Below are positions 8,001 to 45,814 of a stretch of 64,000 bases of DNA, in pieces; the stretch's first letter is position 1, and every line of letters starts with the position of its first letter. The notes below the pieces were generated by a model. That model saw only the letters and a program-made list of their open reading frames with translations. It was not told where the DNA came from and did no database searches. Made by a program: the position numbers and the translations under genes. Source of the DNA: Endozoicomonas numazuensis (GTDB lineage Bacteria > Pseudomonadota > Gammaproteobacteria > Pseudomonadales > Endozoicomonadaceae); the NCBI RefSeq assembly GCF_000722635.1, contig NZ_JOKH01000002.1:409849-473848 (forward strand), read 5' to 3'.

Positions 8001-9080
8001 GCTGGATTCAAGCAATAAGTGCAAGCAACTCCCCGGTGTAGACTTCGAGCGGAGTTCGCCCACCTAATACTTTTCTCGGCATGGTATTGATTAACAATTC
8101 AGTTTCTCGAATCTCTGCTGCTGTCAGACCCCCGAGAGCCATTTTCTTAGGCCAGGTTCGACGGATGATGCCATTAGTATTCTCGTTCGTTCCTCTCTGG
8201 TAACTGGCATAAGGCTTGGCAAAAAATACATCAGCACTCACTGCTTTAGCTACCTTTTCATGAGCGGCAAACTCACCCCCGTTATCCAGTGTGATGGTGC
8301 AAACAGATGATACCCGTCCCAGCAATTTAATCATGCTATCTGCAACCGTTTCTGCTTGCTTGTTGTCCACTTTATCAATCAGTGTGAAGCGGCTTTTTCG
8401 GTCAACCAATGTCACCAGGTGAGCGTCCTGTCCAAATACCGTGTCACCTTCCCAGTCTCCCAGGCGAGACCGAAGATCTACAACCTCAGGACGTTCAGTA
8501 ATATCAACGCGATTGGGTATCAGGGAACGTCCCGCCTTGCGTTTACCGCCCTTGCAGCGTCTCTTTCCAAAACGAGGCAGCTTCTTGTACAGTGTGCCTC
8601 CGCTGGCCTTGTTATCAGCGATACGAGCGTAAATAGTGGTATGGCTCAAGGTGATTTCAGGGATCTCGATTTTCATCCTGCAGCTGATGTTCTCAGGTGA
8701 CCAGCCAAGCAGCAGACCATTTTCTATAATCGGCATTTGTCGTTCATCGACTTTACTGTATTTTCTGGCTGACACTCTACGATGAATAGCCATACTGTGA
8801 GCTGTCTCGGCACAATAACCGTTGCCATCAGTATTGCGTTGAAGCTCCCGAGATAAGGTGCCTGCACTGGTGCCAATTCTCTCTGCAATCTCTTTCTGCG
8901 TAAGACCTGTCCCAAGAAGAGCTTCGATCTGGTATCGTTGCCCCTGAGTCAGTTGCTTGTATAGTTTGGTTTGTGTATTCATTCCTGACTTCCATTTCTG
9001 AGTGTGAGAGCTACAGAATGTACCAGCAGCTGGCTCACATCTGAAATATCAGTCGATTGCACTTATTGTATTAATCCAGC
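8001..9080 (-). mobile_element. IS30-family insertion sequence, complete
   Basis: The element is 1080 bp, bounded by 24-bp imperfect inverted repeats: GCTGGATTCAAGCAATAAGT followed by GCAA at 8001-8024, and its complement at 9057-9080 with three mismatches. The transposase stop codon lies inside the left repeat. No clear target duplication is visible (flanks CGAC and ATCA). It interrupts the 3' part of a lysozyme-like gene on its right side; the left flank does not obviously continue that gene, so a deletion may have followed insertion. Confidence 0.9.
8008..8982 (-). CDS. IS30-family transposase
   Basis: A 324-residue DDE transposase. The N-terminal helix-turn-helix (LTQKEIAERIGTSAGTLSREL, about 27-47) is typical of IS30. 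The catalytic triad is visible as D180 in GDWEGDTV, D233 in TLDNGGEF and E267 in RGTNENTNG, which gives the 33-residue D-E spacing of this family. The reading frame is intact, so the element is probably still active. The gene fills almost the whole element. Confidence 0.95.
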   Translation of the reverse strand: MNTQTKLYKQLTQGQRYQIEALLGTGLTQKEIAERIGTSAGTLSRELQRNTDGNGYCAETAHSMAIHRRVSARKYSKVDERQMPIIENGLLLGWSPENISCRMKIEIPEITLSHTTIYARIADNKASGGTLYKKLPRFGKRRCKGGKRKAGRSLIPNRVDITERPEVVDLRSRLGDWEGDTVFGQDAHLVTLVDRKSRFTLIDKVDNKQAETVADSMIKLLGRVSSVCTITLDNGGEFAAHEKVAKAVSADVFFAKPYASYQRGTNENTNGIIRRTWPKKMALGGLTAAEIRETELLINTMPRKVLGGRTPLEVYTGELLALIA

Positions 9081-9780
9081 ATCACTTTTCAAAAGATTTA
9101 AAGTTGTTGGTATACCTTCTGTACCAAATTGATACATAGCAGAAATTATTGCAGCCCGCTCATTAGATTCCGGAACAACAAATCCAGCCATTTGCTTATC
9201 CAATGACTTTTCATAGCTATCAACAACCTTATTTAGAAGTTGTGTTGCAACTTGCTCAGAAGGAAGGAAGTAAGTAATTCATATCCTTCGCAAAAACCTT
9301 CATGATCTCTGTGTATTTTTCTTCATTAGATAAAGGTGAGGATATATTAAATCCATTATCCACTATTGTTTTATCCAATATCGTCCTATACAAGAATTCT
9401 GCACTGCTATTTTCATCCAGATTCAAGCCCAGAGATATAGCAATAGCGTGTAATTCACTAGCACTACCAGACTTACCATTAATAGCACTTAGATCTTTGG
9501 CTTTATTTAGTATCGCAACTTGTTCATTATTTAATGTCTCTGCACCAACAGAAGAAAGCGTATTATTAATTGATTCAACACTTCTAACAAGAAAATCAAA
9601 ACCGTATCCTACTGCAAGATTTTTTTTACCATCATAATGTGCAGAAAGATCAATTTCTCTAGCTGGGCTATTTTTAAACAAGGGGGCATTTTCTTGTATT
9701 TTTATCTCACTATTTCTTGTTTCAATATAGCTTTTTGAAGTTATATTAAATGTAAACGACACAATAAAATTCCTTTTCAA
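9081..9780 (-). pseudogene. T4-lysozyme-like muramidase gene, frameshifted and IS-truncated
   Basis: The intact frame starts at 9780 and runs 174 residues to a TGA at 9256-9258. It contains LSAHYDGKKNLAVGYGFDF, resembling the D..G..TIGYG core of T4-type or pesticin-type lysozymes. Beyond the stop, a shifted frame continues as LPSEQVATQLLNKV and then ERAAIISAMYQFGTEGIP, which resembles the C-terminal helix of T4 lysozyme. The frames join perfectly if one GAAG unit is removed from the (GAAG)x3 tract at 9259-9270. The IS30 element cuts the end at 9080. There is no signal peptide, and it lies downstream of a type I secretion locus on the same strand, so it may once have been a secreted cargo. AT-rich compared with the core genes. 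Confidence 0.6.
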
Positions 9781-9807
9781 CTAATATCTTTTTAATTAAC
9801 AGTATTT

Positions 9808-10050
9808 TCATTCGAAAAACACTCTGCACCGATGATAGTTACCTATATCACCTTTAATTAGCGATTTAGCATGCAAAATACTCACACTTGAACCACTCCA
9901 CAAGTATTTACCAGGATATCTCTTCACTAAAGCAAATACATAAATTTCACCTTTATATTTAAGGCTCTTCAGGGATAACTGTGGGTAAAAATGAACAGAT
10001 TTTGAGATAAAAGCATCAGTAGCAAACTTTTGATAGTTTTTTGTTGATGG
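9808..10050 (-). pseudogene. 3' remnant of an unrecognised gene
   Basis: An open frame of about 80 codons (CPSTKNYQKFATDAF ... KGDIGNYHRCRVFFE) ends 27 bases before the lysozyme-like gene. The frame runs on upstream to 10110, but that part overlaps the start of an oppositely oriented ISL3 transposase, so the original 5' end has probably been lost to the insertion. The sequence is AT-rich like the lysozyme gene. By position it is a candidate partner or protective gene for the lysozyme, but nothing in the sequence shows its function. Confidence 0.4.
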
Positions 10051-10077
10051 ACAAAAAAACAACAAAAGTGACCACTG

Positions 10078-10512
10078 ATGCTGATTAAAACTATCCTCAA
10101 TAAAGTTCATAAACTCAAGTCATTTGTTTATCAAGATGTAAAGCTCGGCTTCTATCAAGGTTCTGAAGTATTCAATGTAACCGTTGTTCCACGAAAGAAC
10201 AGTCACGCTATCTGCTCAGGATGCCAGAAGCCTGCTCCTGGCTATGATCATCTTGCTGAACGTCGCTTCGAGTTTATCCCTCTCTGGGGCATCAGGGTTT
10301 TCCTGCTCTACATAATGCGACGGGTGGAATGCAATTCATGTGGTGTAAAGGTTGAACAGGTTCCATGGGCTGATGGCAAGAAGGAGCTGACCAAAGTTTA
10401 CATGCAGTTCCTCGCACATTGGGCAAAAAAGTTATCGTGGAAAGAGGTTGCCAGTAGTTTCAGTACTTCATGGGAGAAAGTCTTTCATGCTGTTGAGTAC
10501 GTTGTTGAATGA
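10078..10512 (+). pseudogene. ISL3-family transposase, N-terminal fragment
   Basis: The 144-residue product holds only the DNA-binding half of an ISL3 transposase: a zinc-ribbon (CSGCQKPAPGYDHLAERRFEFIPLWG ... RRVECNSCGVKVEQVPW) and the start of the helix-turn-helix (WKEVASSFSTSWEKVFHAVEYVV). ISL3 transposases are usually about 400 residues; the DDE domain is missing. The frame stops exactly where a REP element begins at about 10510, so the REP/transposase unit and an associated deletion removed the rest. Not expected to be functional. Confidence 0.85.
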
Positions 10513-10545
10513 CTCGTTCCCACGCTCCAGCGTGGGAATGCATAC
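10513..10545 (+). repeat. REP element (plus orientation)
   Basis: A 33-base element with the stem CCCACGCTCCAGCGTGGG, preceded by CTCGTT and followed by AATGCATAC. Identical or near-identical copies lie at 12968-13000, 43242-43274, 43832-43864 and 45782-45814. This one lies 26 bases past the stop of the REP-associated transposase. Confidence 0.9.
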
Positions 10546-10571
10546 CTAAACTCACCATAACCGATCCACCT

Positions 10572-11081
10572 CTAACAAACCTCAACACCAAGGTAATTCC
10601 TCGCGCTGGAATAACGCCAGTGTTCTGCTCTATCCACATAACCACGCTTCACCGGGTTTTGATGAATATATTCCACTTTCTGTCTCATCGTAACTTCACC
10701 CTGGATTAACTCGGGGTGAACACCTTCCTGCCAGAACTGAAAAGCCCTGTCATTTTTATACGCCTTCTTGTAAAAAGCCAGCTGGTCGAGTACTGTTTTT
10801 GCTTTTCTCTCACTCAGCCACTGGATTAACTGCTTGGCGGTGTAAGCTTTAAATTTTGCTATATCTTTATCCAACTCTGGACTCTGCGCCAGAATGTGTA
10901 GATGATTTTCAAGAATCACATAGGCATGTATTTTCATGCCTTGGCTCATCAAATGTCTCATTGAGTCCAGTAGTATGGCGACAGTCTCTGGCCTGGTAAA
11001 AACAGAGATCCAGTGCAGTACGGTTAACGTCATAAAATGCGGTTGATCCGGTTGAGTGAATTTATATCGACTTCTACCCAT
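10572..11081 (-). CDS. REP-associated tyrosine transposase (RAYT)
   Basis: A 169-residue Y1/HUH protein of the IS200-like superfamily, thought to move or multiply REP elements. Visible motifs are the HUH pair H60-L-H62 in YVILENHLHILAQ, the candidate catalytic tyrosine Y80 in KAYTAKQL, and the RAYT signature YIHQNPVKRGYV with WRYSSARNYL near the C terminus. It is flanked by REPs in inverted orientation, at 10513-10545 downstream and 12968-13000 upstream, which is the usual arrangement of such a unit. A group II intron now lies between its start and the upstream REP. Confidence 0.9.
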   Translation of the reverse strand: MGRSRYKFTQPDQPHFMTLTVLHWISVFTRPETVAILLDSMRHLMSQGMKIHAYVILENHLHILAQSPELDKDIAKFKAYTAKQLIQWLSERKAKTVLDQLAFYKKAYKNDRAFQFWQEGVHPELIQGEVTMRQKVEYIHQNPVKRGYVDRAEHWRYSSARNYLGVEVC

Positions 11082-11109
11082 TTCTTATTCCGAGTGTTTT
11101 ATTAGTCAG

Positions 11110-12967
11110 ATCGGGATAGGGCGTAGCCTCACGGCTACGCTCCTCCCACAACACCCAGCATACGGGTCCGTACTGGGCGTTTCGGCCAGTTAAGCGGCCA
11201 ACAATCTGATTAAACCTAACTTATCAAACCAACTATTGGGTAGCGCCATGTGTAACGCAGGACTCCGGCTCACTCGCCAATGTCCTTTTCCTGAAGCTAC
11301 CGTTTGCCTTGTCAGTTTGTCACTGATTCCCTGCTTTCGCAGTTCCTTGTACCGCTTTGGGCTTCTCTTCCATTGATACCAGAGCAGACTTCGCAACCGC
11401 CTTCTTATCCAACAGTCAAAGTGTTCAAACTCTGTGCGGGTTTCTACTTCTCGGAAGTAGTTCTTCCATCCCTGCAAGTACCTGTTGAGTCCTTCCAGCC
11501 TCTGCTCAAGGGATCGACCTCCCTTTCGGGTTAGCTGTCTGATTTTATCCTTGAAGCGCTTGCCACTCTTTGTCGCAAGGGTTTTCCTGCCGTCTCGGGT
11601 AAAACTGTACCCCAGAAAGGGGCGCTTCCATGCCCGATCAACCGCGCTCTTTGTGTGATTGACTTTCAGTTTCATTTTACCCTCGATCAGCTTGACCAGA
11701 CTGGCCATCACCCTTTCCCCTGCCTTCTTACTTTTAACAAACACACGACAGTCGTCAGCGTACCGAACAAATCGCAGACCTCGATTTTCGAGCGTTCTGT
11801 CAAGTTCGTCCAATACTATGTTTGAAAGTACAGGAGACAGGGGACCTCCCTGTGGCACACCCTCCGCTTGCGGTTTTACCAGCCCGTTTTCCATCACTCC
11901 GGACTTCAGGAATCGACGAATCAAACGCAATACATCCTTGTCCTCTATATGCTCTGCCAACTTTGCCATCAGTCGATCATGGTTGACCCGGTCGAAAAAC
12001 TTCGACAAATCAATATCCACCACCCAGTTGTAACCATCCTTCATATACAACTGAGCCTGACTGATAGCCTGATGTGCAGACCTATAGGGCCTAAATCCGT
12101 AGCTGTAAGCCGAGAACCTTGGCTCCCACTCTGCCTGCAATACTTGTTGTATTGCCTGCTGCACCATTCGATCAAGAGCTGTTGGTATACCCAACTTTCG
12201 CTCTCCTCCGTCCGGCTTGGGAATCAGAACTCTTCTTACTGGAGTGGGTTTCCACAACCCTCTGCTCAAACACTGCCTCAGTTGACGACCATGCCCTTGT
12301 AAATACGTGAACAGGTCTTCCACTGTCATGCGGTCAATGCCTGCCGCTCCTTTGTTGCGTTTTACTCGCTGAAAGGCTTTCTTCAGATTATTGGGGTGGG
12401 CGATACGTGCCATCAAGCCTGTATCGCTTGCCGGGCTTTCGTAATCCTGTGATGCCGACACAACCTCAGCCCTCATAACGTCGCAGCCTCCGGTTCCGCC
12501 GTGACCACTTGGCATGAGTTCCAGTGTTTGCTGGATTTGTCTGCGTCCGGTGTATCGAATAACAGAAACTATTCACCACTCTGTACCGTTCAGGCCTTCA
12601 CTGACATTCGCCAGCTACTATGCCGTCTGCTGACTTCTGTATGGCGATCAGGCCACCTTACGATAGCCTCAGTCCGAAATATCAGACACCACACAGACCT
12701 CCCGAGGTAAGTCACACCGCCTTCGCCGCACAACCGCCAGATCTACTGCCTGAATGTCCGGATGAGTATGGACTTCGTCATCATACGCTGACTCGTCCTC
12801 ACGCAGACAGCCTCATATCTGATTTCTGTTCGTCGGCTCGCGGTTTTGCTCCACACTGCCTTCAGCCTGCATCTCACGATACAAACCTTGTGCTTCGCTA
12901 GTCCTTCGCCCTCATCTGGCTGGACAGGGGACTTTCACCCCCAAGCTGTGTGACATGCTCGGCACAC
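11110..12967 (-). mobile_element. Group II intron, copy 1, inserted directly after a REP
   Basis: The transcript reads on the minus strand. The 5' end is GTGTGCCGAGCATG at 12967 downward, matching the conserved GUGYG start. The 3' end is at 11110, with a domain V-like hairpin (CCCAGTACGG/CCGTATGCTGGG) and a domain VI-like stem (GGAGCGTAGCC/GGCTACGCCC), ending CCCGAT. The 5' exon is a complete REP ending GCATAC. A second copy at 43923-45781 has the same 5' exon. The encoded protein seems to lack an endonuclease domain. Insertion just after a hairpin fits class C-like introns. The two ends are inferred from motifs and from comparing the two copies. Confidence 0.85.
11190..12515 (-). CDS. ltrA: Group II intron reverse transcriptase/maturase, copy 1
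   Basis: The 441-residue intron-encoded protein helps splicing and copies the intron into new sites. Reverse-transcriptase motifs are in order: KNKGAAGIDRMTVED-type RT0/1, YSYGFRPYRSAHQA, VVDIDLSKFFDRVNHD, EGVPQGGPLSPVLSNI, and the active site YADD at 252-255. A maturase domain follows (RLEGLNRYLQGWKNYF...FDCWIRRRLRSLLW). No HNH endonuclease follows, so target cleavage probably relies on single-stranded or hairpin targets. The protein is identical to that of copy 2. An internal methionine (MRAEVV) is an alternative start. Confidence 0.95.
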   Translation of the reverse strand: MPSGHGGTGGCDVMRAEVVSASQDYESPASDTGLMARIAHPNNLKKAFQRVKRNKGAAGIDRMTVEDLFTYLQGHGRQLRQCLSRGLWKPTPVRRVLIPKPDGGERKLGIPTALDRMVQQAIQQVLQAEWEPRFSAYSYGFRPYRSAHQAISQAQLYMKDGYNWVVDIDLSKFFDRVNHDRLMAKLAEHIEDKDVLRLIRRFLKSGVMENGLVKPQAEGVPQGGPLSPVLSNIVLDELDRTLENRGLRFVRYADDCRVFVKSKKAGERVMASLVKLIEGKMKLKVNHTKSAVDRAWKRPFLGYSFTRDGRKTLATKSGKRFKDKIRQLTRKGGRSLEQRLEGLNRYLQGWKNYFREVETRTEFEHFDCWIRRRLRSLLWYQWKRSPKRYKELRKQGISDKLTRQTVASGKGHWRVSRSPALHMALPNSWFDKLGLIRLLAA

Positions 12968-13000
12968 GTATGCATTCCCACGCTGGAGCGTGGGAACGAG
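12968..13000 (-). repeat. REP element, 5' exon of group II intron copy 1
   Basis: Same 33-base element as at 10513 but in the opposite orientation, ending exactly at the intron 5' boundary. Its other end abuts the truncated lipase gene. Confidence 0.9.
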
Positions 13001-13553
13001 TCAAAGTACCATCACCATTAAACTCTGAATAGGCCGTATTTAAATGCTCCCAGTACTCATTGTATGCAGGGTCAGCATTGATGTAGCCAGAATTCACCAT
13101 ATACTCATGGAGTTGGAGCATAGCCTGCTGGGAGTAGGCAGAATTTTCAAAGTTTGCAGGATCAAAAACCTGTGCAGGTTTATCAAACAGCACAGCCATC
13201 AAAGATGCCAGACCACCACCCAAGGAGTGGCCGGTAAACGAGATATTTGCGTCTGGGTATTTTGCCTTGGTTGCAAAATACAAATCAACGGCTTGCTCTA
13301 GCTGCTGACTATAAGCTCCCGTTGCCAGTGGTGCATTTGCAACAATAGTATCATTGAGAACATTATCGGTACCCGAGAAGGCAATAACAACTTCCGTTCC
13401 ATTCGTATAAACAGCTCCGATGAAGTCGCTTTCTTCATCAATTACCCTCTTCCCATCCATTTGCCAGCCATCTTGCAAAACAATGGTATTCGACTCATTT
13501 GTCTTATATACATGCAAAGCAAGTTGTGCGTAAACACTAGTTTCTATTGTCAT
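13001..13553 (-). pseudogene. Class 3 lipase, truncated by a REP
   Basis: About 184 residues remain of a lipase or esterase with an alpha/beta-hydrolase fold. The nucleophile elbow GHSLGGGLASLM is intact, preceded by VVIAFSGTDN, typical of class 3 lipases. The aspartate/histidine end of the triad cannot be seen. The frame runs into the REP and intron, adding a meaningless tail (TRSHAPAWECI...). There is no signal peptide, and the gene lies 40 bases after a small membrane protein and downstream of a type I transporter, so the missing C terminus could have carried the secretion signal. Export by that transporter is inference. Confidence 0.75.
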
Positions 13554-13593
13554 TATTTCACTTCCTTATTAATAGTATTTCATGGGTTACTGC

Positions 13594-14250
13594 TTATAAT
13601 TCACAACCACCTCGTGAATACGGCTTATCGGTGACACACCGATACTTTGGTGCACCTCTAGGCCTTTTTAACCATCGTTCCTTTTTCTTTTTCAGAGACA
13701 GGTTTCTTTCACCACTGTATCTGACTCTCACCAACATATTAGGTGACGTTCTCTGTTCGATATATTTCATGGATATAGGATAAGGAACCCATTCACCCAG
13801 TTCATAACGGAATTCTATGTACTTATATTTTGGATCGGGTAGGCCAAGCAGAGTCACTCTTCTAGGGCCATCCGTCGTATACCAGGTAGCAATCACAAAC
13901 CACTGACCAGTCTCTGGATTTTTGTCAAAAACAACAGGTAAGAAGCTGGAACTCCACTCTTTTGGCTTATCAGATATATCATCACCTATGATACTCAAGG
14001 TCATATTCTTGACCTCTATAAACCCAGGCCCTGCAATTTGCCCTCCTTTTTTAAAATAGGCAGCCCTTTTTACCCACACCACTTCACCAGTCGACAAAGC
14101 TACCTCTTCCTTCCATGAAAAACGATTCTCACCATCCCAATCGACGTACCAGTAAACCGCTACTATCGTTAAGACGAAGAAGGAAAACACTTTATGTTTT
14201 TTGATAAAAAGCCAAAGCTTTTTACTCAACCCAGCAATAAATTTCATCAT
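13594..14250 (-). CDS. Membrane-anchored protein of unknown function
   Basis: A 218-residue protein with one N-terminal membrane segment (VFSFFVLTIVAVYWYV, about 22-37) after a positively charged start, then a hydrophilic, probably periplasmic domain rich in W, Y and beta-type sequence, ending in a basic tail. It begins 20 bases after the adaptor gene stop, with GAGAGG ten bases before the start, and is followed by the truncated lipase 40 bases later. I do not recognise the family. Its position between the secretion genes and a hydrolase suggests an accessory or protective role, but that is inference. Confidence 0.65.
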   Translation of the reverse strand: MMKFIAGLSKKLWLFIKKHKVFSFFVLTIVAVYWYVDWDGENRFSWKEEVALSTGEVVWVKRAAYFKKGGQIAGPGFIEVKNMTLSIIGDDISDKPKEWSSSFLPVVFDKNPETGQWFVIATWYTTDGPRRVTLLGLPDPKYKYIEFRYELGEWVPYPISMKYIEQRTSPNMLVRVRYSGERNLSLKKKKERWLKRPRGAPKYRCVTDKPYSRGGCEL

Positions 14251-14270
14251 TCCATTTCAACCTCTCAAAG

Positions 14271-15679
14271 CTAGCGCTCCCTGATACTCTCCTGCTTAAA
14301 CCTCAAAAGCGGACTCAAAAAATACTCAATCAACCGCCGCTGTCCCGTTTTAATTTCCACCGCCACACTCATTCCTGGCGACAGGTTCACTTTCCTTTTC
14401 TCCACCAACATCCAGCCCTTCACAATCTGAACGTTGGCCAGATATCTCAACCCCTGCTTTTCATCCGGTACAGCATCATTGGAAATATTGATCAATTCAC
14501 CTGATATCTGACCGTACTTGGTGAAGTTGAAGGTATCGATCTTCACTTCAGCCTTCTGTCCTTCCTGCACGAAGCCAATATCTTTGTTCAGCACCCAGGC
14601 TTCCACTTCCATCTTTGCTTCTTTTGGGACGATCTGCATCAGTGCCTGTGCGGGTTGTACGACACCGCCAATGGTATGTATTTGCAATTGCTGAACGGTG
14701 CCATCTAACGGCGCTGTGATCAGTTGTTGATTGTGCAATTCCTGTGCCTTGATACTTTCCTGTTTCAGACTGGCGAGCTGTCGGTGCAGTTGTTCTTGTT
14801 GATCCAGGCTTTCGCGTCGGGTTTGGGCGTGGAGGCTGAGGAGTTGGTTCTGAATCTCTTCCTGCTCGGCTTCCAGCTGTTGAACTGCTGCTTGCTGGGC
14901 TTTGATGTCTTCTTCCAACTCGATACGTTGCTGTTCCAGTTCGAGATACTGCACTTTTGATCCGTAGTTCTTTTTATACAGACCTTCCAGCGCCTGGGTG
15001 CGCTCCTCGATAATAGGCAGAACCCTTTGCAGTTTGGTGACAATGGCCTTTATAGTGCGCTGTTCTGCGGCTTTGCTCTTTAACTGACTCTTAAGGGTTT
15101 CAGAAGCTGATACATAATCTTCTATCTGTTGCAGCAACAGTTGCTCTTCAAATTCATGGTTACCTTCAACCATGCCTTGTGGGTAATAAGTCTCCAGATT
15201 GATTACCGCTGGTCTTGAGTGACTATCAATATCAAGATAATCAGTAAACGCCTGCTGTCGTGCCAGCTGAAGAGTATAAGCAGTCATCTCTTTGGTCAGC
15301 CTGACCAGCTCAGCCTCAGTGACAGTACCCACCAGAGTGACCAGAGGGTCACCGGTTTTCACTTCATCACCTTCACGAATATGAATCGCCTGTACTTCTC
15401 CAATCACCATGGGCTGAATGGTTTTTACCCGTTCACCGGGTACTATCTTGCCCTGAGCAGTAGCCACAATATCGATCTTGCCCACACAGGCCCAGATGAT
15501 GGCAATAATAAAGAGCACCACAATGGCTTTGACTATGGCTCGACTAGCCGGATTGGCTGGGTTTCTTCCACTTCCAATGCAGCGGGTAAAAACTGTCGTC
15601 GAGTGTTTTGCAGCGCTTCCTGCTTTTCTGTTCTGGACAGCAGAGCTTTTGTGGCCTTCTCAAAGAAAGACTTAATCAT
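14271..15679 (-). pseudogene. HlyD-type type I secretion adaptor, frameshifted
   Basis: Periplasmic adaptor linking the inner-membrane ABC transporter to a TolC-like channel. The start at 15679 overlaps the ABC stop (TAATG). The first 48 codons read MIKSFFEKATKALLS... to LEVEETQP and reach a TAG. In the other frame the protein continues NPASRAIVKAIVVLFIIAII (membrane segment), a long coiled coil, the lipoyl/barrel halves and the family C terminus (VNLSPGMSVAVEIKTGQRRLIEYFLSPLLRF). One missing base near 15552-15556 explains the break, and restoring it gives 469 residues, a normal length. A GTG at 15521 could give a 416-residue product lacking the cytoplasmic N terminus, so residual function cannot be excluded. 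Confidence 0.85.
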
Positions 15680-17814
15680 TACACTGCCTCCCTTACGCCA
15701 TGCTGATGAGCATTCAGTCGAGCATAGTGCCCACCCAGTTTAACGAGCTGATCATGGCTGCCCTCTTCTACGATACGCCCTTTATCCATCACAATAATCC
15801 GGTTAGCATCCCGTACGGTCGAAAGCCGGTGCGCAATAATAAACACAGTTCTGCCCTGGCTGATGCGTTTCATATTCTGCTGAATAATATGCTCGGACTC
15901 ATAGTCCAGGGCACTGGTGGCTTCATCAAAAATCAGGATTTTTGGATTGGTAAGGAGTGCACGAGCAATAGCGATACGCTGTTTCTGTCCACCTGAAAGG
16001 GAACTGCCCTGCTCCCCCACCTGAGTGTCATAACCTTCAGGCAGCTCCAGAATAAATTCGTGGGCACCTGCCAGTTTCGCGGCAGCCATAACGCGTTCAA
16101 TAGAAGCACCGGGATCGGCCAGGGCTATATTGTCCCGAACAGAGCGGTTAAACAGAAAGTTTTCCTGAAGCACTACCCCCACCTGCCTTCGTAACCAGGC
16201 TGGCTCCACCAATGCCAGATCCACACCATCGACCAGAACACGACCAGACTCAGGTACATATAGTCTCTGTACCAACTTGGTCAGTGTGCTTTTGCCAGAA
16301 CCGGATCGACCGACTATGCCAATGATTTCACCGGGTTTAACTTCCAGGGAAACACCATTAAGCACTGCCGGTCGATCCGGCTGATAGCGAAAGCTGACAT
16401 GCTCAAACTTGACGAAACCATTAAGCGCCGGAAGGGTTGTACGGTTTGGATCATGCCCAGGTTCTGTAGGCGTGTTTAATATGTCACCCAGCCTCTGAAC
16501 AGAAATACCGGCCTGCTGAAAATCCTGCCAGAGTTGCACCAGTTTCAGAATAGGAGCGCTGACACGACCGGCAATCATGTTAAAAGCAATCAGCATACCC
16601 ACTGACAGTTCGCCATTAATCACCAGCGTAGCGCCCACCCAGAGAATAAGAACGGTAACCACCTTATTAATCAGCCCTGCGGTCTGGCTGGCAATATTGC
16701 CAAGATTCATAGCCCGGAAGGATGCCGAAACGTACGCCGCCAGCTGATCTTCCCAGACTCGCTGCATCTGGGGCTCTACTGCACTGCTTTTAATGGTTTC
16801 CATGCCAGTAACAGATTCCACCAGAAAGGACTGGTTTTCAGCGCCCCGCTTGAACTTTTCATTCAAACGGGCACGTAATATCGGCGTGACGATCAGCGAT
16901 AGAATAATGTAGAAAGGAATCGAACCCAGTACGATCCAGGTCAACGTTGGGCTGTAGAAATACATCACCACAAAGAAGATGATCGTAAACAACAGATCAA
17001 TGCAGAGTGTTAGTGCAGAACCGGTAATAAACTCCCGAATCGTATCCAACTCTCGAACACGGGCTACCGTATCCCCTACTCTGCGCGCATGAAAAAAGGC
17101 CACCGGCAAACGCAATAGATGATTGAACAGCCGGGAACCCAGCACCACATCCACCCGGTTGGTGGTGTGGCTGAACACGTAATTCCGCAGACCATTGAGG
17201 ACAATATCAAAGACAGACAGCACCAACAAACCAAAGGCCAACACATCCAACGTCGTTAATGCCTGATTAACCAGTACCTTATCAATAATGACCTGGAAGA
17301 ACAGAGGGGTAATCAGAGCAAATAGCTGAATAAAAAATGAGGCCAGAAACACTTCATAAATCAGCTTCTTGTGCTTAAGAATGGCGGGTATGAACCAGCT
17401 GAAGTCAAACTTCGCCATCCCCCCCGGCAGCATGGAGCGCTTGGTAAAGAGGAACAGTTCACCGGTGAACAGGGTTTCCAGAACATCCAGCGATACTGTT
17501 TCTGGCTTATCCTTCAGCGGGTCCTGAATCAGCGCCTTGCCCTCATGAAAGCGGGCAATGATAAAGTAATGGCCATCGGTATGACGGGCTATAGCGGGTA
17601 AAGGAAGATCCTGAAGTTTTTCGCTGTGGGTTTCTACTCGCCGGGCTTTTAGTTTTAAAAGCTTTGCCACACCGAGTATATCAATGGCTTCAATAGCCTT
17701 TGTTGAATCACCCAACTGATGCTTGATCTGCTCTGGTTGAGCGGCCAACCCATGAAAGCGGGCAAGCATAACCAGGCAGGTTACGGCTGAATCCGAACTG
17801 CGTACGCCATCCAT
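15679..17814 (-). CDS. Type I secretion ABC transporter, HlyB type
   Basis: Inner-membrane exporter for proteins with an uncleaved C-terminal signal. The 711 residues comprise an N-terminal C39-peptidase-like domain (about 1-125), a six-helix membrane domain (about 140-430) and a nucleotide-binding domain with Walker A GRSGSGKST, signature LSGGQKQR, Walker B ILIFDEATSALD and H-loop AHRLST. In the C39-like domain the catalytic cysteine position reads SDSAVTC instead of DCG.AC, so this domain binds rather than cuts substrate, as in HlyB. It is followed by the frameshifted adaptor. A decayed copy of the first 73 codons plus upstream DNA is found at 43469-43781. Confidence 0.93.
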   Translation of the reverse strand: MDGVRSSDSAVTCLVMLARFHGLAAQPEQIKHQLGDSTKAIEAIDILGVAKLLKLKARRVETHSEKLQDLPLPAIARHTDGHYFIIARFHEGKALIQDPLKDKPETVSLDVLETLFTGELFLFTKRSMLPGGMAKFDFSWFIPAILKHKKLIYEVFLASFFIQLFALITPLFFQVIIDKVLVNQALTTLDVLAFGLLVLSVFDIVLNGLRNYVFSHTTNRVDVVLGSRLFNHLLRLPVAFFHARRVGDTVARVRELDTIREFITGSALTLCIDLLFTIIFFVVMYFYSPTLTWIVLGSIPFYIILSLIVTPILRARLNEKFKRGAENQSFLVESVTGMETIKSSAVEPQMQRVWEDQLAAYVSASFRAMNLGNIASQTAGLINKVVTVLILWVGATLVINGELSVGMLIAFNMIAGRVSAPILKLVQLWQDFQQAGISVQRLGDILNTPTEPGHDPNRTTLPALNGFVKFEHVSFRYQPDRPAVLNGVSLEVKPGEIIGIVGRSGSGKSTLTKLVQRLYVPESGRVLVDGVDLALVEPAWLRRQVGVVLQENFLFNRSVRDNIALADPGASIERVMAAAKLAGAHEFILELPEGYDTQVGEQGSSLSGGQKQRIAIARALLTNPKILIFDEATSALDYESEHIIQQNMKRISQGRTVFIIAHRLSTVRDANRIIVMDKGRIVEEGSHDQLVKLGGHYARLNAHQHGVREAV

Positions 17815-17992
17815 CGGACGTCTACTCCCTGTTTTTTTTATTCCTTTAATGGCAGCTATTAAACGTCACTTACTGTTTATAACTCAAGAGAAACCGGTCA
17901 CACTTTCAAACAAATATACGGGAGATTACAAGCTGAATGTCAGAACACTTGTATTCACCTCCCTCTCAACCTGTTTTATCAAAGTAAAGTCA

Positions 17993-41424: not shown

Positions 41425-41967
41425 TCATTGAACTAGAAACTCAAACCATTTCATTCTATTGCAAGTTACTTTTGGGGGTTTTGAAACAAAAATACTCGAC
41501 TTAAAGTCTGAGAAATCCTTTTCTATACTCTTAATGTCAATTACAGCTGTATATTTACCTGGATCTAAATAGGCTCTTCCGACAATCAGTAAAAGTGGAT
41601 CTGGCCCATACCTGTATCCAGATACAGCTCCACCGTAGTTTTTTACTGAAATAATTTCTTCACCAAAACTATGGTAAAGCGACATATCTATAATTGCGGA
41701 AAGTTTTATATCCTGAGCATGGCCAAAAAAACTTTGAATCGTCCTTTCTTCATTTTTAGATTCAAAAATAACTCCCAACTCATAGGTACAGTGATCACGA
41801 ACATCAACTTCTACATATTTCACTCCTTTATTGAAGTCTATCTTTTTTGAAATAATTTGAAGCTTTGGAGTGTAGAGCGAAAGAGCTAGAAAACTGGCCA
41901 ACAGGATACAGCAGAAAAACTTAATTAAACTGCTATAGTTTAGTTTTCTATCTTTCAAAATCTTCAT
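41425..41967 (-). CDS. Small exported protein, cassette gene 2
   Basis: A 180-residue AT-rich gene. The N terminus has a membrane segment or signal (LIKFFCCILLASFLALSLYTP), then a beta-rich domain with DHCTYELGVIF, GRAYLDPGKYTAVIDI and FVSKPPKVTCNR. The layout resembles DUF5625-like periplasmic proteins, but I am not certain. ATG 41967 is preceded by GAGGGT. The gene starts 13 bases after a remnant of the HlyD 3' end, just as the genes at 13594 and 42190 follow HlyD 3' ends. That position, rather than its sequence, suggests an accessory or protective protein of the secretion locus. Confidence 0.6.
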   Translation of the reverse strand: MKILKDRKLNYSSLIKFFCCILLASFLALSLYTPKLQIISKKIDFNKGVKYVEVDVRDHCTYELGVIFESKNEERTIQSFFGHAQDIKLSAIIDMSLYHSFGEEIISVKNYGGAVSGYRYGPDPLLLIVGRAYLDPGKYTAVIDIKSIEKDFSDFKSSIFVSKPPKVTCNRMKWFEFLVQ

Positions 41968-41979
41968 TCTTACCCTCAC

Positions 41980-42160
41980 TCATCGTTCCCTCAAACTCTC
42001 CTGCATAAACCTCAAAAGCGGACTCAGAAAATACTCAATTAACCGCCGCTGCCCCGTTTTTGATTTCCACCGTTACACTCATCCCAGGTGACAAATTTAC
42101 TTTTCTCTTCTCTACCAACATTCAACCCTTCTCAATCTGAACACTGGCCAAGCATCTCAT
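41980..42160 (-). pseudogene. HlyD 3'-end remnant, copy 3
   Basis: In minus translation the pieces ASVQIEKG, MLVEKRKVNLSPGMSVTVEIK and LLRFMQESLRER match the C terminus of the adaptor at 14271, in two frames with one internal stop. The match ends at the same stop position as the adaptor. It is more decayed than copy 2 at 42944. Confidence 0.8.
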
Positions 42161-42189
42161 CCGTCAGTGAGTCATTCATTATGAGTTAT

Positions 42190-42954
42190 CTACTCGCTTT
42201 TTTCCAACAACTCTGAATATTCCGAAAGCATATGCATCTTGAATAAAAAAGTGCACACTATAAAAGAAAAGAAAGAACCCAAGTTATATAATGTTAGAAA
42301 TGAGGAATCAGAGTCTTCTACTCCTCCACATCTTATTGAACAAGACTCAGATGAAACCAAACTAAAATTAAAACCGTACAACAATCCCAAGCTAAAAATA
42401 ACAATAACAAACTTCATCTTATGATCTATAACTGCTTTAGAGTACTTTCCTTGAGCAATATCTTTTTTTTGATTAGTTGAAAGACTTATAGAGTGAGAAC
42501 AAATCATATATGAACTTAGAAAAGTCCATAAACCCACAAAAACAAAATTATGACGGACCTCTTCAATACGTCTATACAATTCCATACTTATCAGGTCATT
42601 CTCAGTTTTTGCCATCGCCGGAATAATAGTATTGACAACCTCTTCAGCAAATCTGAACGAAGAAATATATTTCAAATACATCTCATAGAAAGAAGCTCGA
42701 AAAATAATAATGAAAAAGTAGTAAAATATTGGAATACCTATCACACAATAATACAGCCAGCGCTCACGATAATTAAGAACACCTGTACTCCTTAAATGCG
42801 CTATCGCAATACACAGTACACAACACAATAGAACATAGATAACCACACTAACTGAATGCACTGTAAAACCTTTCAAAGAAAGGAATATAGCTAACATTAC
42901 TACTGTGAATAGTATTACTTGATAGTATCTATTCAACACTCTCTTATCGCTCAC
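42190..42954 (-). CDS. Multi-spanning membrane protein, cassette gene 1
   Basis: A 254-residue AT-rich gene with about five hydrophobic segments (YYQVILFTVVMLAIFLSL, VVIYVLLCCVLCIAIA, WLYYCVIGIPIFYYFFIII, FVGLWTFLSSYMI, FVIVIFSLGLLYGF) and a helical loop between. No family recognised. The GTG at 42954 lies seven bases after GGAG, which is inside the QES codons of the overlapping HlyD fragment; a GTG at 42960 is the alternative. The HlyD 3' end therefore supplies the ribosome-binding site. A protective inner-membrane protein is a guess from context. Confidence 0.55.
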   Translation of the reverse strand: MSDKRVLNRYYQVILFTVVMLAIFLSLKGFTVHSVSVVIYVLLCCVLCIAIAHLRSTGVLNYRERWLYYCVIGIPIFYYFFIIIFRASFYEMYLKYISSFRFAEEVVNTIIPAMAKTENDLISMELYRRIEEVRHNFVFVGLWTFLSSYMICSHSISLSTNQKKDIAQGKYSKAVIDHKMKFVIVIFSLGLLYGFNFSLVSSESCSIRCGGVEDSDSSFLTLYNLGSFFSFIVCTFLFKMHMLSEYSELLEKSE

Positions 42955-43234
42955 AAACACTCTCCTGCTTAAACCTCAAAAGCGGACTCAAAAAATACTC
43001 AATCAACCGCAGCTGCCCCGTTTTTTTAATTTCCACCACCACACTCATTCCTGGCGACAGATTCACTTTCCTTTTCTCCACCAGCATCCAGTCTTTTTCT
43101 ATCTGAACATGGGCTAAATATCTCAACCCCTGTTTTTCATCAGGAACAGCATCATTAGAAATATTGATCAATTCAACTGAAATCTGACCGTACTTGGTGA
43201 AGTTGAAGGTATCTATCTTCACTTCAGCTGTCGG
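42944..43234 (-). pseudogene. HlyD 3'-end fragment, copy 2
   Basis: About 96 residues (AEVKIDTFNFTKYGQIS ... LIEYFLSPLLRFKQESVCER) nearly identical to the end of the adaptor at 14271, including the stop position. Upstream it is cut by the REP at 43242-43274, through which the frame continues as nonsense. It overlaps the start of the downstream membrane gene. Confidence 0.88.
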
Positions 43235-43241
43235 ACCTTGA

Positions 43242-43274
43242 CTCGTTCCCACGCTCCAGCGTGGGAATGCATAC
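43242..43274 (+). repeat. REP element
   Basis: Same 33-base element as at 10513, followed by C, so it is an unoccupied version of the intron site. It breaks the HlyD-like sequence. Confidence 0.9.
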
Positions 43275-43468
43275 CTGTACTCACTCAAGGTACTCTACTT
43301 CCAGACAGATCTGATAAGTCCTATCCTTTCTATGGTTTTTTTGTAGAAAAAATAATTGATCCGATTAAGTGAACTTGCATCAATTTCTTCCCATCTACTG
43401 CTCCGTGCAATCAGCCATGAGCTCCAACGCTGGGTCTGGGAATAACTATCGCTATGATGGGATAGAAT
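43275..43468. other. Unrecognised insert within the decayed secretion locus
   Basis: About 194 bases replace the rest of the ABC transporter and most of the adaptor between the two surviving fragments. No gene or known element is visible. The CAACGCTGGGTCTGGGAA segment near 43421 could be a worn REP arm. Confidence 0.35.
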
Positions 43469-43687
43469 GGGTAAAGGAAGATCCTGGAGTTTTTCGCTGT
43501 GGGTTTCTACTCGCCGGGCTTTTAGTTTTAAAAGCTTTGCCACACCGAGTATATCAATGGCTTCAATAGCCTTTGTTGAATCACCCAACTGATGCTTGAT
43601 CTGCTCTGGCTGAGCGGCCACCCCATGAAAGCGGGCAAGCATAACCAGGCAGGTTACGGCTGAATCCGAACTGCGTACGCCATCCAT
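43469..43687 (-). pseudogene. Type I ABC transporter, N-terminal fragment
   Basis: The first 73 codons (MDGVRSSDSAVTCLVMLARF ... KLQDLPLP) match those of the transporter at 15679-17814 with one substitution seen (GLAAQ to GVAAQ). The frame then enters unrelated sequence. The whole transmembrane and ATPase part is gone. Confidence 0.92.
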
Positions 43688-43781
43688 CAGACGTCTACTC
43701 CCTGTTTTTTTTATTCCTTTAATGGCAGCTATTAAACGTCACTTACTGTTTATAACTCAAGAGAAACCGGTCACACTTTCA
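43688..43781 (-). promoter_or_regulatory. Duplicated upstream region of the ABC transporter gene
   Basis: These 94 bases are almost identical to 17815-17908, directly upstream of the intact transporter. Conservation of the leader along with the first codons shows that the duplication included the promoter region. It may still transcribe towards the cassette genes. Confidence 0.7.
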
Positions 43782-43831
43782 GATAAATGTATGAGCGGTT
43801 AAAGTTTGGAGATCAGGCATCTCATGGGGCG

Positions 43832-43922: not shown

Positions 43923-45781
43923 ATCGGGATAGGGCGTAGCCTCACGGCTACGCTCCTCCCACAACACCACAGCATACGGGTCCGTACTGGGCGTTTCGGC
44001 CAGTTAAGCGGCCAACAATCTGATTAAACCTAACTTATCAAACCAACTATTGGGTAGCGCCATGTGTAACGCAGGACTCCGGCTCACTCGCCAATGTCCT
44101 TTTCCTGAAGCTACCGTTTGCCTTGTCAGTTTGTCACTGATTCCCTGCTTTCGCAGTTCCTTGTACCGCTTTGGGCTTCTCTTCCATTGATACCAGAGCA
44201 GACTTCGCAACCGCCTTCTTATCCAACAGTCAAAGTGTTCAAACTCTGTGCGGGTTTCTACTTCTCGGAAGTAGTTCTTCCATCCCTGCAAGTACCTGTT
44301 GAGTCCTTCCAGCCTCTGCTCAAGGGATCGACCTCCCTTTCGGGTTAGCTGTCTGATTTTATCCTTGAAGCGCTTGCCACTCTTTGTCGCAAGGGTTTTC
44401 CTGCCGTCTCGGGTAAAACTGTACCCCAGAAAGGGGCGCTTCCATGCCCGATCAACCGCGCTCTTTGTGTGATTGACTTTCAGTTTCATTTTACCCTCGA
44501 TCAGCTTGACCAGACTGGCCATCACCCTTTCCCCTGCCTTCTTACTTTTAACAAACACACGACAGTCGTCAGCGTACCGAACAAATCGCAGACCTCGATT
44601 TTCGAGCGTTCTGTCAAGTTCGTCCAATACTATGTTTGAAAGTACAGGAGACAGGGGACCTCCCTGTGGCACACCCTCCGCTTGCGGTTTTACCAGCCCG
44701 TTTTCCATCACTCCGGACTTCAGGAATCGACGAATCAAACGCAATACATCCTTGTCCTCTATATGCTCTGCCAACTTTGCCATCAGTCGATCATGGTTGA
44801 CCCGGTCGAAAAACTTCGACAAATCAATATCCACCACCCAGTTGTAACCATCCTTCATATACAACTGAGCCTGACTGATAGCCTGATGTGCAGACCTATA
44901 GGGCCTAAATCCGTAGCTGTAAGCCGAGAACCTTGGCTCCCACTCTGCCTGCAATACTTGTTGTATTGCCTGCTGCACCATTCGATCAAGAGCTGTTGGT
45001 ATACCCAACTTTCGCTCTCCTCCGTCCGGCTTGGGAATCAGAACTCTTCTTACTGGAGTGGGTTTCCACAACCCTCTGCTCAAACACTGCCTCAGTTGAC
45101 GACCATGCCCTTGTAAATACGTGAACAGGTCTTCCACTGTCATGCGGTCAATGCCTGCCGCTCCTTTGTTGCGTTTTACTCGCTGAAAGGCTTTCTTCAG
45201 ATTATTGGGGTGGGCGATACGTGCCATCAAGCCTGTATCGCTTGCCGGGCTTTCGTAATCCTGTGATGCCGACACAACCTCAGCCCTCATAACGTCGCAG
45301 CCTCCGGTTCCGCCGTGACCACTTGGCATGAGTTCCAGTGTTTGCTGGATTTGTCTGCGTCCGGTGTATCGAATAACAGAAACTATTCACCACTCTGTAC
45401 CGTTCAGGCCTTCACTGACATTCGCCAGCTACTATGCCGTCTGCTGACTTCTGTATGGCGATCAGACCACCTTACGATAGCCTCAGTCCGAAATATCAGA
45501 CACCACACAGACCTCCCGAGGTAAGTCACACCGCCTTCGCCGCACAACCGCCAGATCTACTGCCTGAGTGTCCGGATGAGTATGGACTTCGTCATCATAC
45601 GCTGACTCGTCCTCACGCAGACAGCCTCATATCTGATTTCTGTTCGTCGGCTCGCGGTTTTGCTCCACACTGCCTTCAGCCTGCACCTCACGATACAAAC
45701 CTTGTGCTTCGCTAGTCCTTCGCCCTCATCTGGCTGGACAGGGGACTTTCACCCCCAAGCTGTGTGACATGCTCGGCACAC
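43923..45781 (-). mobile_element. Group II intron, copy 2, inserted directly after a REP
   Basis: Nearly identical to copy 1 at 11110-12967: one extra base near the 3' end and a few substitutions in the non-coding 5' domain. The 5' exon is again a complete REP ending GCATAC, while the 3' exons of the two copies differ. This near identity shows recent spread within the genome. Confidence 0.87.
44004..45329 (-). CDS. ltrA: Group II intron reverse transcriptase/maturase, copy 2
   Basis: The 441-residue protein is identical to that encoded at 11190-12515, with YADD at 252-255 and an intact maturase domain and no HNH endonuclease. Both copies can therefore supply the activity for each other. Confidence 0.95.
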   Translation of the reverse strand: MPSGHGGTGGCDVMRAEVVSASQDYESPASDTGLMARIAHPNNLKKAFQRVKRNKGAAGIDRMTVEDLFTYLQGHGRQLRQCLSRGLWKPTPVRRVLIPKPDGGERKLGIPTALDRMVQQAIQQVLQAEWEPRFSAYSYGFRPYRSAHQAISQAQLYMKDGYNWVVDIDLSKFFDRVNHDRLMAKLAEHIEDKDVLRLIRRFLKSGVMENGLVKPQAEGVPQGGPLSPVLSNIVLDELDRTLENRGLRFVRYADDCRVFVKSKKAGERVMASLVKLIEGKMKLKVNHTKSAVDRAWKRPFLGYSFTRDGRKTLATKSGKRFKDKIRQLTRKGGRSLEQRLEGLNRYLQGWKNYFREVETRTEFEHFDCWIRRRLRSLLWYQWKRSPKRYKELRKQGISDKLTRQTVASGKGHWRVSRSPALHMALPNSWFDKLGLIRLLAA

Positions 45782-45814
45782 GTATGCATTCCCACGCTGG
45801 AGCGTGGGAACGAG
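45782..45814 (-). repeat. REP element, 5' exon of group II intron copy 2
   Basis: Identical to the REP at 12968-13000 and placed in the same way against the intron 5' boundary. Confidence 0.9.

Follow-up and report, generated by a model that had tools for sequence, protein, structure and literature searches.

Why should the 3' end of a type I secretion adaptor gene, hlyD, occur three times in one stretch of a bacterial genome, each time directly ahead of a different small gene? The stretch in question, called the window below, comprises 64,000 nucleotides of Endozoicomonas numazuensis (assembly GCF_000722635.1, contig NZ_JOKH01000002.1, positions 409,849 to 473,848). We suggest that the small genes behind the hlyD ends are probably interchangeable immunity genes of toxins that the pump delivers from bacterium to bacterium, and we consider it likely that they belong to a polymorphic antibacterial toxin-immunity system of type I secretion, built as the mirror image of the contact-dependent inhibition (CDI) and Rhs systems. 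What we observe, and what this proposal is built on, are the borders of homology, the exchange of genes between related genomes, the pairing of small genes with effectors, and the predicted topologies of the small proteins. The features concerned lie in a main operon and in a second locus (locus 2) 29 kb away from it:

15679..17814, minus strand: ATP-binding cassette (ABC) transporter gene of type I secretion with an N-terminal C39-like domain; frame open; Pfam Peptidase_C39, ABC_membrane and ABC_tran
14271..15679, minus strand: hlyD adaptor gene, main copy; Pfam HlyD_3 and HlyD_D23; frame break near 15560, in the 5' part
13594..14250, minus strand: small gene 1, 218 residues, a single transmembrane segment, at the N-terminus; proposed to confer immunity against the lipase behind it
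13010..13553, minus strand: effector remnant with a lipase N-terminal domain (Lipase_3, E 5.3e-8)
43448..43791, minus strand: duplicated 5' end of the ABC gene with leader, 96.2% identical to 17575-17918 over 344 nucleotides
42945..43239, minus strand: hlyD 3' end, copy 2, about 97 codons, 88.8% identical to the main copy over 295 nucleotides
42190..42954/42960, minus strand: small gene 2, 254-256 residues, five predicted transmembrane segments; proposed orphan immunity gene
41984..42162, minus strand: hlyD 3' end, copy 3, about 59 codons in a broken frame (two frames), 83.8% identical to the main copy over 179 nucleotides
41425..41967/41979, minus strand: small gene 3, 180-184 residues, membrane anchor at the N-terminus and an all-beta domain; proposed orphan immunity gene

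The three hlyD 3' ends described in an earlier note on this DNA are indeed present on the minus strand (14271 onward, 42945-43239 and 41984-42162), and a query made of the final 300 bases of the gene and the 20 bases after it found no further copy in the 31 contigs (6.34 Mb) of the organism's own genome. In all three copies the DNA homology stops at the adaptor stop codon, and the sequence past the stop is unrelated. The note had the copies ending at the same stop codon, which is right for the position of the stop but not for the codon itself (TAG, TAA and TGA). A different AT-rich gene does follow each copy, with a G+C content of 41%, 33% and 34% for genes 1 to 3 versus 48% for the window. 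The frames of all three genes are open (none of 5,000 mononucleotide shuffles of each stayed open), and the genes have no similarity to one another at E < 0.05. Each starts at the adaptor stop or just beyond it, and gene 2 starts inside the adaptor end, where the ribosome-binding site reported previously was found again: AGGAG lies in the Q-E codons (at -23), followed with a spacing of 7 nucleotides by an in-frame GTG at -11.

Database searches placed the small genes in no known family. Genes 1 to 3 matched no Pfam family at E up to 1; in NCBIfam, neither they nor five small genes from relatives had a match at E up to 0.1. A PADLOC search of the small genes gave a single weak match (gene 1, E 0.019), and searches against solved structures with two small genes, an alignment of gene 1 and one further pair returned nothing useful. 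The membrane anchor and all-beta domain of gene 3 come from a single-sequence AlphaFold2 model of middling confidence (mean predicted local distance difference test score, pLDDT, of 67).

Locus 2 consists of the ABC 5' fragment with its leader, an hlyD end corresponding to residues 379-475 of a relative's adaptor, the 254-residue gene, another hlyD end, and the 180-residue gene; given the ABC fragment ahead of copy 2, it looks like the wreck of a second operon. It might also be a mere decayed segmental duplication into which genes 2 and 3, unrelated to the system, landed by chance: the ABC 5' leader and the hlyD 3' end are both duplicated there, elements resembling repetitive extragenic palindromes (REP-like repeats) are found near it, as is a group II intron block, and genes 2 and 3 occur in no other genome searched. 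We find this improbable, as both genes start at the adaptor end (gene 2 inside it), the two tandem adaptor ends have diverged unequally (88.8% and 83.8% identity), and the pattern recurs in relatives with unrelated genes. Locus 2 looks duplicated and decayed, yet neither of its downstream genes is related to the one behind the main copy, and something must therefore have been exchanged. A single segmental duplication without exchange, which the earlier note had set against its own idea, is thus not what occurred, and exchange is seen as well in loci of Endozoicomonas relatives and of Microbulbifer, described below.

In relatives, the order of genes is ABC, hlyD, small gene and large RTX (repeats-in-toxin) effector, the effectors whose frame ends inside the contig having 309 to 3278 residues. 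The window's operon runs from ABC through hlyD and the 218-residue gene to a truncated lipase, and its ABC transporter is 93.7% identical to that of relative G004 (G and L numbers denote genomes and loci, respectively). Among 38 genomes of the family, ten loci have a close adaptor, meaning an identity of 56% or more: those of the window, G006, G001, G004, G021, G031 (two), G025, G058 and G010. A small gene directly follows the adaptor in nine of the ten, and the only one common to two of these loci is a gene of 160 residues in G021 and G025; in G010 the effector comes directly after the adaptor, with no small gene. The earlier note had named a single conserved gene behind every adaptor as the outcome that would speak against it; what follows across the ten loci is eight different kinds of small gene, as judged by phmmer. 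An effector frame stands behind the small gene or genes in G006, G001, G004, G021, G025 and both G031 loci; in the window this is the truncated lipase, and in G058 the contig ends first.

In a wider set of 80 named loci, an RTX frame starts within 4.5 kb downstream in 23, and 20 of these 23 have at least one reading frame of 90-420 codons in between, some of which are perhaps not genes; 22 of the 80 have less than 2.5 kb after hlyD, and the others were counted neither way. The arrangement is also found in loci of Sulfuritalea, Thiomicrorhabdus and Microbulbifer. In more distant paralogous systems of the family (L050-L054, adaptor 35-39% identical), four of five loci have no same-strand frame of at least 70 codons before the next large gene, the fifth (L052) being masked past the adaptor. 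Two loci in this comparison have damaged pump genes: L046 (G031, 8173-9601) is a second type I operon whose hlyD is split in two frames, followed by its own 213-residue gene and effector, and in L040 (G001, 13127-13636) an internal deletion has cut the ABC gene to about 170 codons, with the adaptor, small gene and short effector open.

Exchange can be followed base by base between close relatives. L043 (G031) and L045 (Endozoicomonas acroporae, G025) are 96.6% identical from the ABC gene onwards, right up to the final base of the hlyD stop (positions 9833 and 4763). Past this stop, 980 and 1124 bases are dissimilar, a stretch made up of a small gene of 134 or 160 residues and about 185 or 220 effector codons; beyond it, the effectors are again 97.1% identical. 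L042 (G021) carries a third insert, different from both, in which an L045-type small gene and about 45 codons of the L045 toxin are followed by an L043-type small gene and then by the locus's own small gene, the last being homologous to the gene ahead of a related effector in L041. On this gene content we read L042 as a stack of past cassettes. Three Microbulbifer genomes (loci L095, L096 and L109) have the same geometry: similarity ends 1-37 bases before the end of the adaptor stop and returns at effector codons 165-364, depending on the pair. In both trios, L043/L045/L042 and L095/L096/L109, a homologous delivery body is thus joined to unrelated toxin domains in related genomes. At L043 (G031, 10259-14399) we also note that the first effector extends over two overlapping frames and stops where a displaced adaptor end begins.

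The small gene and the effector N-terminus tend to change together. Pairs of homologous small genes have homologous effector N-termini in 12 of 14 cases over the first 180 residues and in 14 of 14 over 250 residues, a result matched in none of 10,000 permutations. This test comprised 37 small-gene/effector pairs, loci without a small gene within 450 bases ahead of the effector having been dropped, and pairs inside one family are not independent. A membrane segment or lipobox is predicted in 31 of the 37 genes directly before an effector, versus 59 of 161 upstream control frames, which were called mechanically and include some that are not genes. Co-variation with the effector N-terminus from within an export operon is also what a dedicated chaperone would show, and the small genes could accordingly be secretion helpers, either chaperones or surface-retention factors for the N-terminal domain of the effector; six of the 37 lack a predicted membrane segment or lipobox, as such a role would allow. 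The membrane segments or lipoboxes of the other 31 do not suit a cytosolic chaperone, however, former small genes persist without their effector, stacked or displaced, and the small gene can change completely while the constant part of the effector is still 97% identical. We therefore regard a helper function as unlikely.

For gene 1, a likely partner can be named. The window's class 3 lipase starts at 13553 and ends near 13010 at a REP-like repeat and the group II intron block, ahead of any of the RTX nonapeptide repeats that are present in many effectors of relatives. Locus L156 holds two homologs of gene 1 (E 4e-5 and 2e-3), and an L156 homolog used as query found matches in 4 of 369 genomes of the class. 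In L156 and L181, the gene 1 homolog sits between the adaptor and a lipase effector, the lipase domain of which is similar to the truncated one in the window (E 2.8e-18; for L181, 40% identity, E 3.2e-26). In L179, two gene 1 homologs follow the adaptor with no effector visible, and in L180 a homolog stands beside an RTX effector with a below-cut-off phage-lysozyme match. The earlier suggestion that the downstream genes protect against hydrolases encoded nearby is thus supported for gene 1 only, where the pairing of genes with the lipase makes it plausible. L181 (9004-12382) also holds two small-gene/lipase-type pairs of different families, in tandem in one type I locus.

The recognised N-terminal domains of the effectors are Lipase_3, M23 and LysM; below cut-off there are matches to SLT, phage lysozyme and ADP-ribosyl-cyclase. 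Endozoicomonas live in marine animals and many RTX proteins target eukaryotic cells, so one might also expect effectors that act on the animal host, the small genes then protecting the producer or modifying the toxin. With M23 and LysM directed at peptidoglycan, as SLT and phage lysozyme would be, and with the same arrangement in Sulfuritalea, Thiomicrorhabdus and Microbulbifer, we hold a host target to be very improbable. The cyclase-like matches, weak and below cut-off (E 0.002 and 0.0008), lie in the first 200 residues of the L130 and L137 effectors. The small genes paired with these effectors, two of the six mentioned above, have no predicted membrane segment, while the homologous gene of L159 has one; membrane-free partners would fit toxins acting in the cytosol, which is only a hint, and it is possible that these two are type I effectors that consume nicotinamide adenine dinucleotide (NAD).

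Adaptor ends have moved elsewhere as well. A displaced end with a co-directional small gene behind it is found twice in the window and in L043, L047 and L105. Behind the displaced end of G031 (L043) come first a small gene, next one that is lipoprotein-like, then a lipase-like effector; this end is 91% identical to the G021 adaptor versus 83% to its own, and this greater closeness to another genome's adaptor suggests that it was imported. In G010, the displaced end precedes a gene of 106 residues, a homolog of the one that comes first behind the G006 adaptor. L105, from a Thiomicrorhabdus metagenome-assembled genome, reads adaptor, 380-residue gene, truncated toxin N-terminus, adaptor end, 268-residue gene and effector; the toxin remnant comes from another cassette and breaks off soon after a linker that the intact effector shares. 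In L114 of the same assembly, a homologous 271-residue gene directly follows a full adaptor. Why an adaptor end should travel along may be explained by the shared translation start: AGGAG in the Q-E codons with GTG at -11 (spacing 7) recurs at five loci (window copy 2, G006, G001, G021 and G025), where the adaptor 3' end is part of the small gene. At the remaining loci the small gene starts at or past the adaptor stop.

Several observations weigh against our proposal. Homologous effector N-termini without detected small-gene homology occur in 13 locus pairs over 180 residues and 34 over 250 residues; faster divergence of immunity proteins would be expected to leave such unmatched genes, although this is not proof. 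The six membrane-free and lipobox-free genes include the gene 1 counterparts in L156 and L181, and several effector N-termini have no recognised domain. Three of the 23 named RTX loci have no frame of 90-420 codons between adaptor and effector, and in L044 the effector directly follows the adaptor. Of nine truncated adaptor ends noted, five have a small gene of the same direction behind them; the ends in L093, G001 (contig C93), G032 and L157 have no such gene next to them, lie amid mobile elements, or are on the other strand. A gene 1 homolog in L182 has no type I genes in view, and a weak match in G396, again without type I genes around, is probably due to chance. Finally, genes 2 and 3 have no homologs in the other 390 of the 391 genomes of the order, and it is their position and topology that suggest their role.

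Taken together, we believe that the following scheme best accounts for the locus. Its constant parts would be, on the 5' side, the genes for the ABC transporter and the adaptor and, on the 3' side, the effector's RTX tail with its presumed C-terminal export signal. Between them would lie an exchangeable cassette of an immunity gene and roughly the first 150-360 effector codons, which would encode the toxin, in recognised cases a lipase or peptidoglycan hydrolase. The cassette would be replaced by recombination between the conserved 3' end of the adaptor and the constant region of the effector; incomplete or ectopic exchange would join an adaptor 3' end to an immunity gene, with the toxin kept or lost, and at the five AGGAG/GTG loci a cassette moving with the adaptor end would bring its own Shine-Dalgarno sequence and GTG start. 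On this scheme the truncated lipase would have its immunity gene in gene 1, and genes 2 and 3 would be immunity genes left over as orphans from earlier cassettes. Antibacterial action, neutralisation by the small proteins, this route of recombination and the role of genes 2 and 3 are what we infer from the DNA; the borders and pairings from which we do so are as described above.

In the window strain, the weapon itself seems to be out of use. The main hlyD copy lies in two frames, corresponding to residues 1-40 and 40-475 of a relative's adaptor and split near residue 40; the region concerned is 15560-15679, and relatives have intact copies of the gene. Given the split frame, the adaptor may be inactive in this strain, and the break may also be a sequencing error. 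With the adaptor, the lipase and copy 3 broken but the frames of the three small genes still open, the role of the locus in this strain is probably protection and not attack, and a weapon lost with its immunity genes kept is the state that fits best.

Copies of the group II intron block, 99.8% identical, lie at 11110-13000 and 43923-45814, one beside each type I locus, and the lipase remnant ends at the first. A palindromic REP-like element of the TCGTTCCCACGCTCCAGCGTGGGAATGCAT type occurs at 10513, 12964, 43235, 43831 and 45782, at junctions of broken genes that include the ABC/hlyD joint of locus 2. At 9050-10110 (minus strand), a broken frame follows one of 100 codons, which in turn overlaps the remnant of an ISL3-type transposase; this is possibly a fourth decayed immunity-toxin cassette. 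A lysozyme-like look of 9256-9780, noticed by eye, was not significant. As a remote effector in the same genome we considered an RTX protein of 4265 residues on contig C2, and rejected it, as no fitting same-strand small gene adjoins it.

Looking beyond this strain, we lean towards the view that these loci stand for a class of polymorphic antibacterial toxins on type I systems across Proteobacteria that is large, as yet unrecognised and inverted in its architecture; in it, the hlyD 3' end would serve as recombination arm and portable translation start, and scattered ends would record past toxin replacements. Such a mirror-image version would mean that the logic of swapping can also arise with a C-terminal export signal, and that the role of recombination arm can fall to an adjacent transport gene. 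The genes found behind hlyD would offer a simple route to new toxin and immunity families.

How does this compare with known systems? In polymorphic toxins, a constant 5' body is followed by a C-terminal toxin, with the immunity gene on the 3' side and strings of former immunity genes behind it (Zhang et al. 2012, PMC3482391), and the order of toxin and immunity genes is said there to have facilitated the polymorphism. CDI and Rhs systems share with the present one the constant delivery body, the exchangeable toxin with an adjacent immunity gene, and the strings of former immunity genes; here, a linked gene co-varies with the toxin domain (12 of 14 pairs), and displaced cassettes or former immunity genes are seen in locus 2 of the window, L042, L043, L047 and L105. 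The likeness to their displaced cassettes drawn in the earlier note holds for the shared upstream arm and the swapped genes behind it, whereas the polarity is reversed. In CDI/Rhs the toxin is at the C-terminal tip and the immunity gene is 3' of it; in the present system the N-terminus holds the variable part along with the enzyme domains that could be recognised, and the small gene is 5' of the effector with the constant tail 3'. Unlike in CDI/Rhs, the 5' recombination arm is a separate gene, hlyD. CDI furthermore uses two-partner secretion (CdiA/CdiB), where the present locus has ABC and HlyD instead (CdiA/CdiB were not sought elsewhere in the genome). The sections of PMC3482391 drawn on here name the type I route only for large RTX toxins in general.

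Two other kinds of system share some features with ours. Caulobacter CdzABCD/CdzI also uses type I secretion, kills neighbours and has a membrane immunity protein, but its toxins are two proteins of 86 and 84 residues, compared with effectors of up to 3278 residues here, and the portions of that report used here describe no cassette exchange (PMC5380434). X-T4SS effectors likewise combine a C-terminal secretion domain with an upstream immunity gene, but are delivered by a type IV system via the XVIPCD domain (PMC6759196). For cassette exchange at adaptor 3' ends, we found no report in the open-licence PubMed Central (PMC) literature, preprints excluded, to the extent that the texts surveyed represent it; an earlier description elsewhere is possible.

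As far as these sources go, the closest published hypothesis concerns FrpC and FrpD of Neisseria: in 2019, FrpC was proposed to be an antibacterial effector of type I secretion, with FrpD conferring the immunity (PMC6759196). Like many effectors of the relatives described here, FrpC is an RTX protein that leaves the cell by type I secretion, and its N-terminus binds a lipoprotein; Smlt3024, of the pair Smlt3024/Smlt3025, resembles 221 larger proteins, of which all but six have RTX-type repeats, and in all but one the likeness lies in the N-terminal region (PMC6759196). That hypothesis concerns one pair, and the portions of the paper used here describe neither exchanged cassettes nor adaptor 3' ends nor arrays. 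The question it raised, whether RTX proteins can be antibacterial effectors, becomes directly testable with these loci, and the present data would extend the idea from one pair to many families and add to it the exchange of cassettes.

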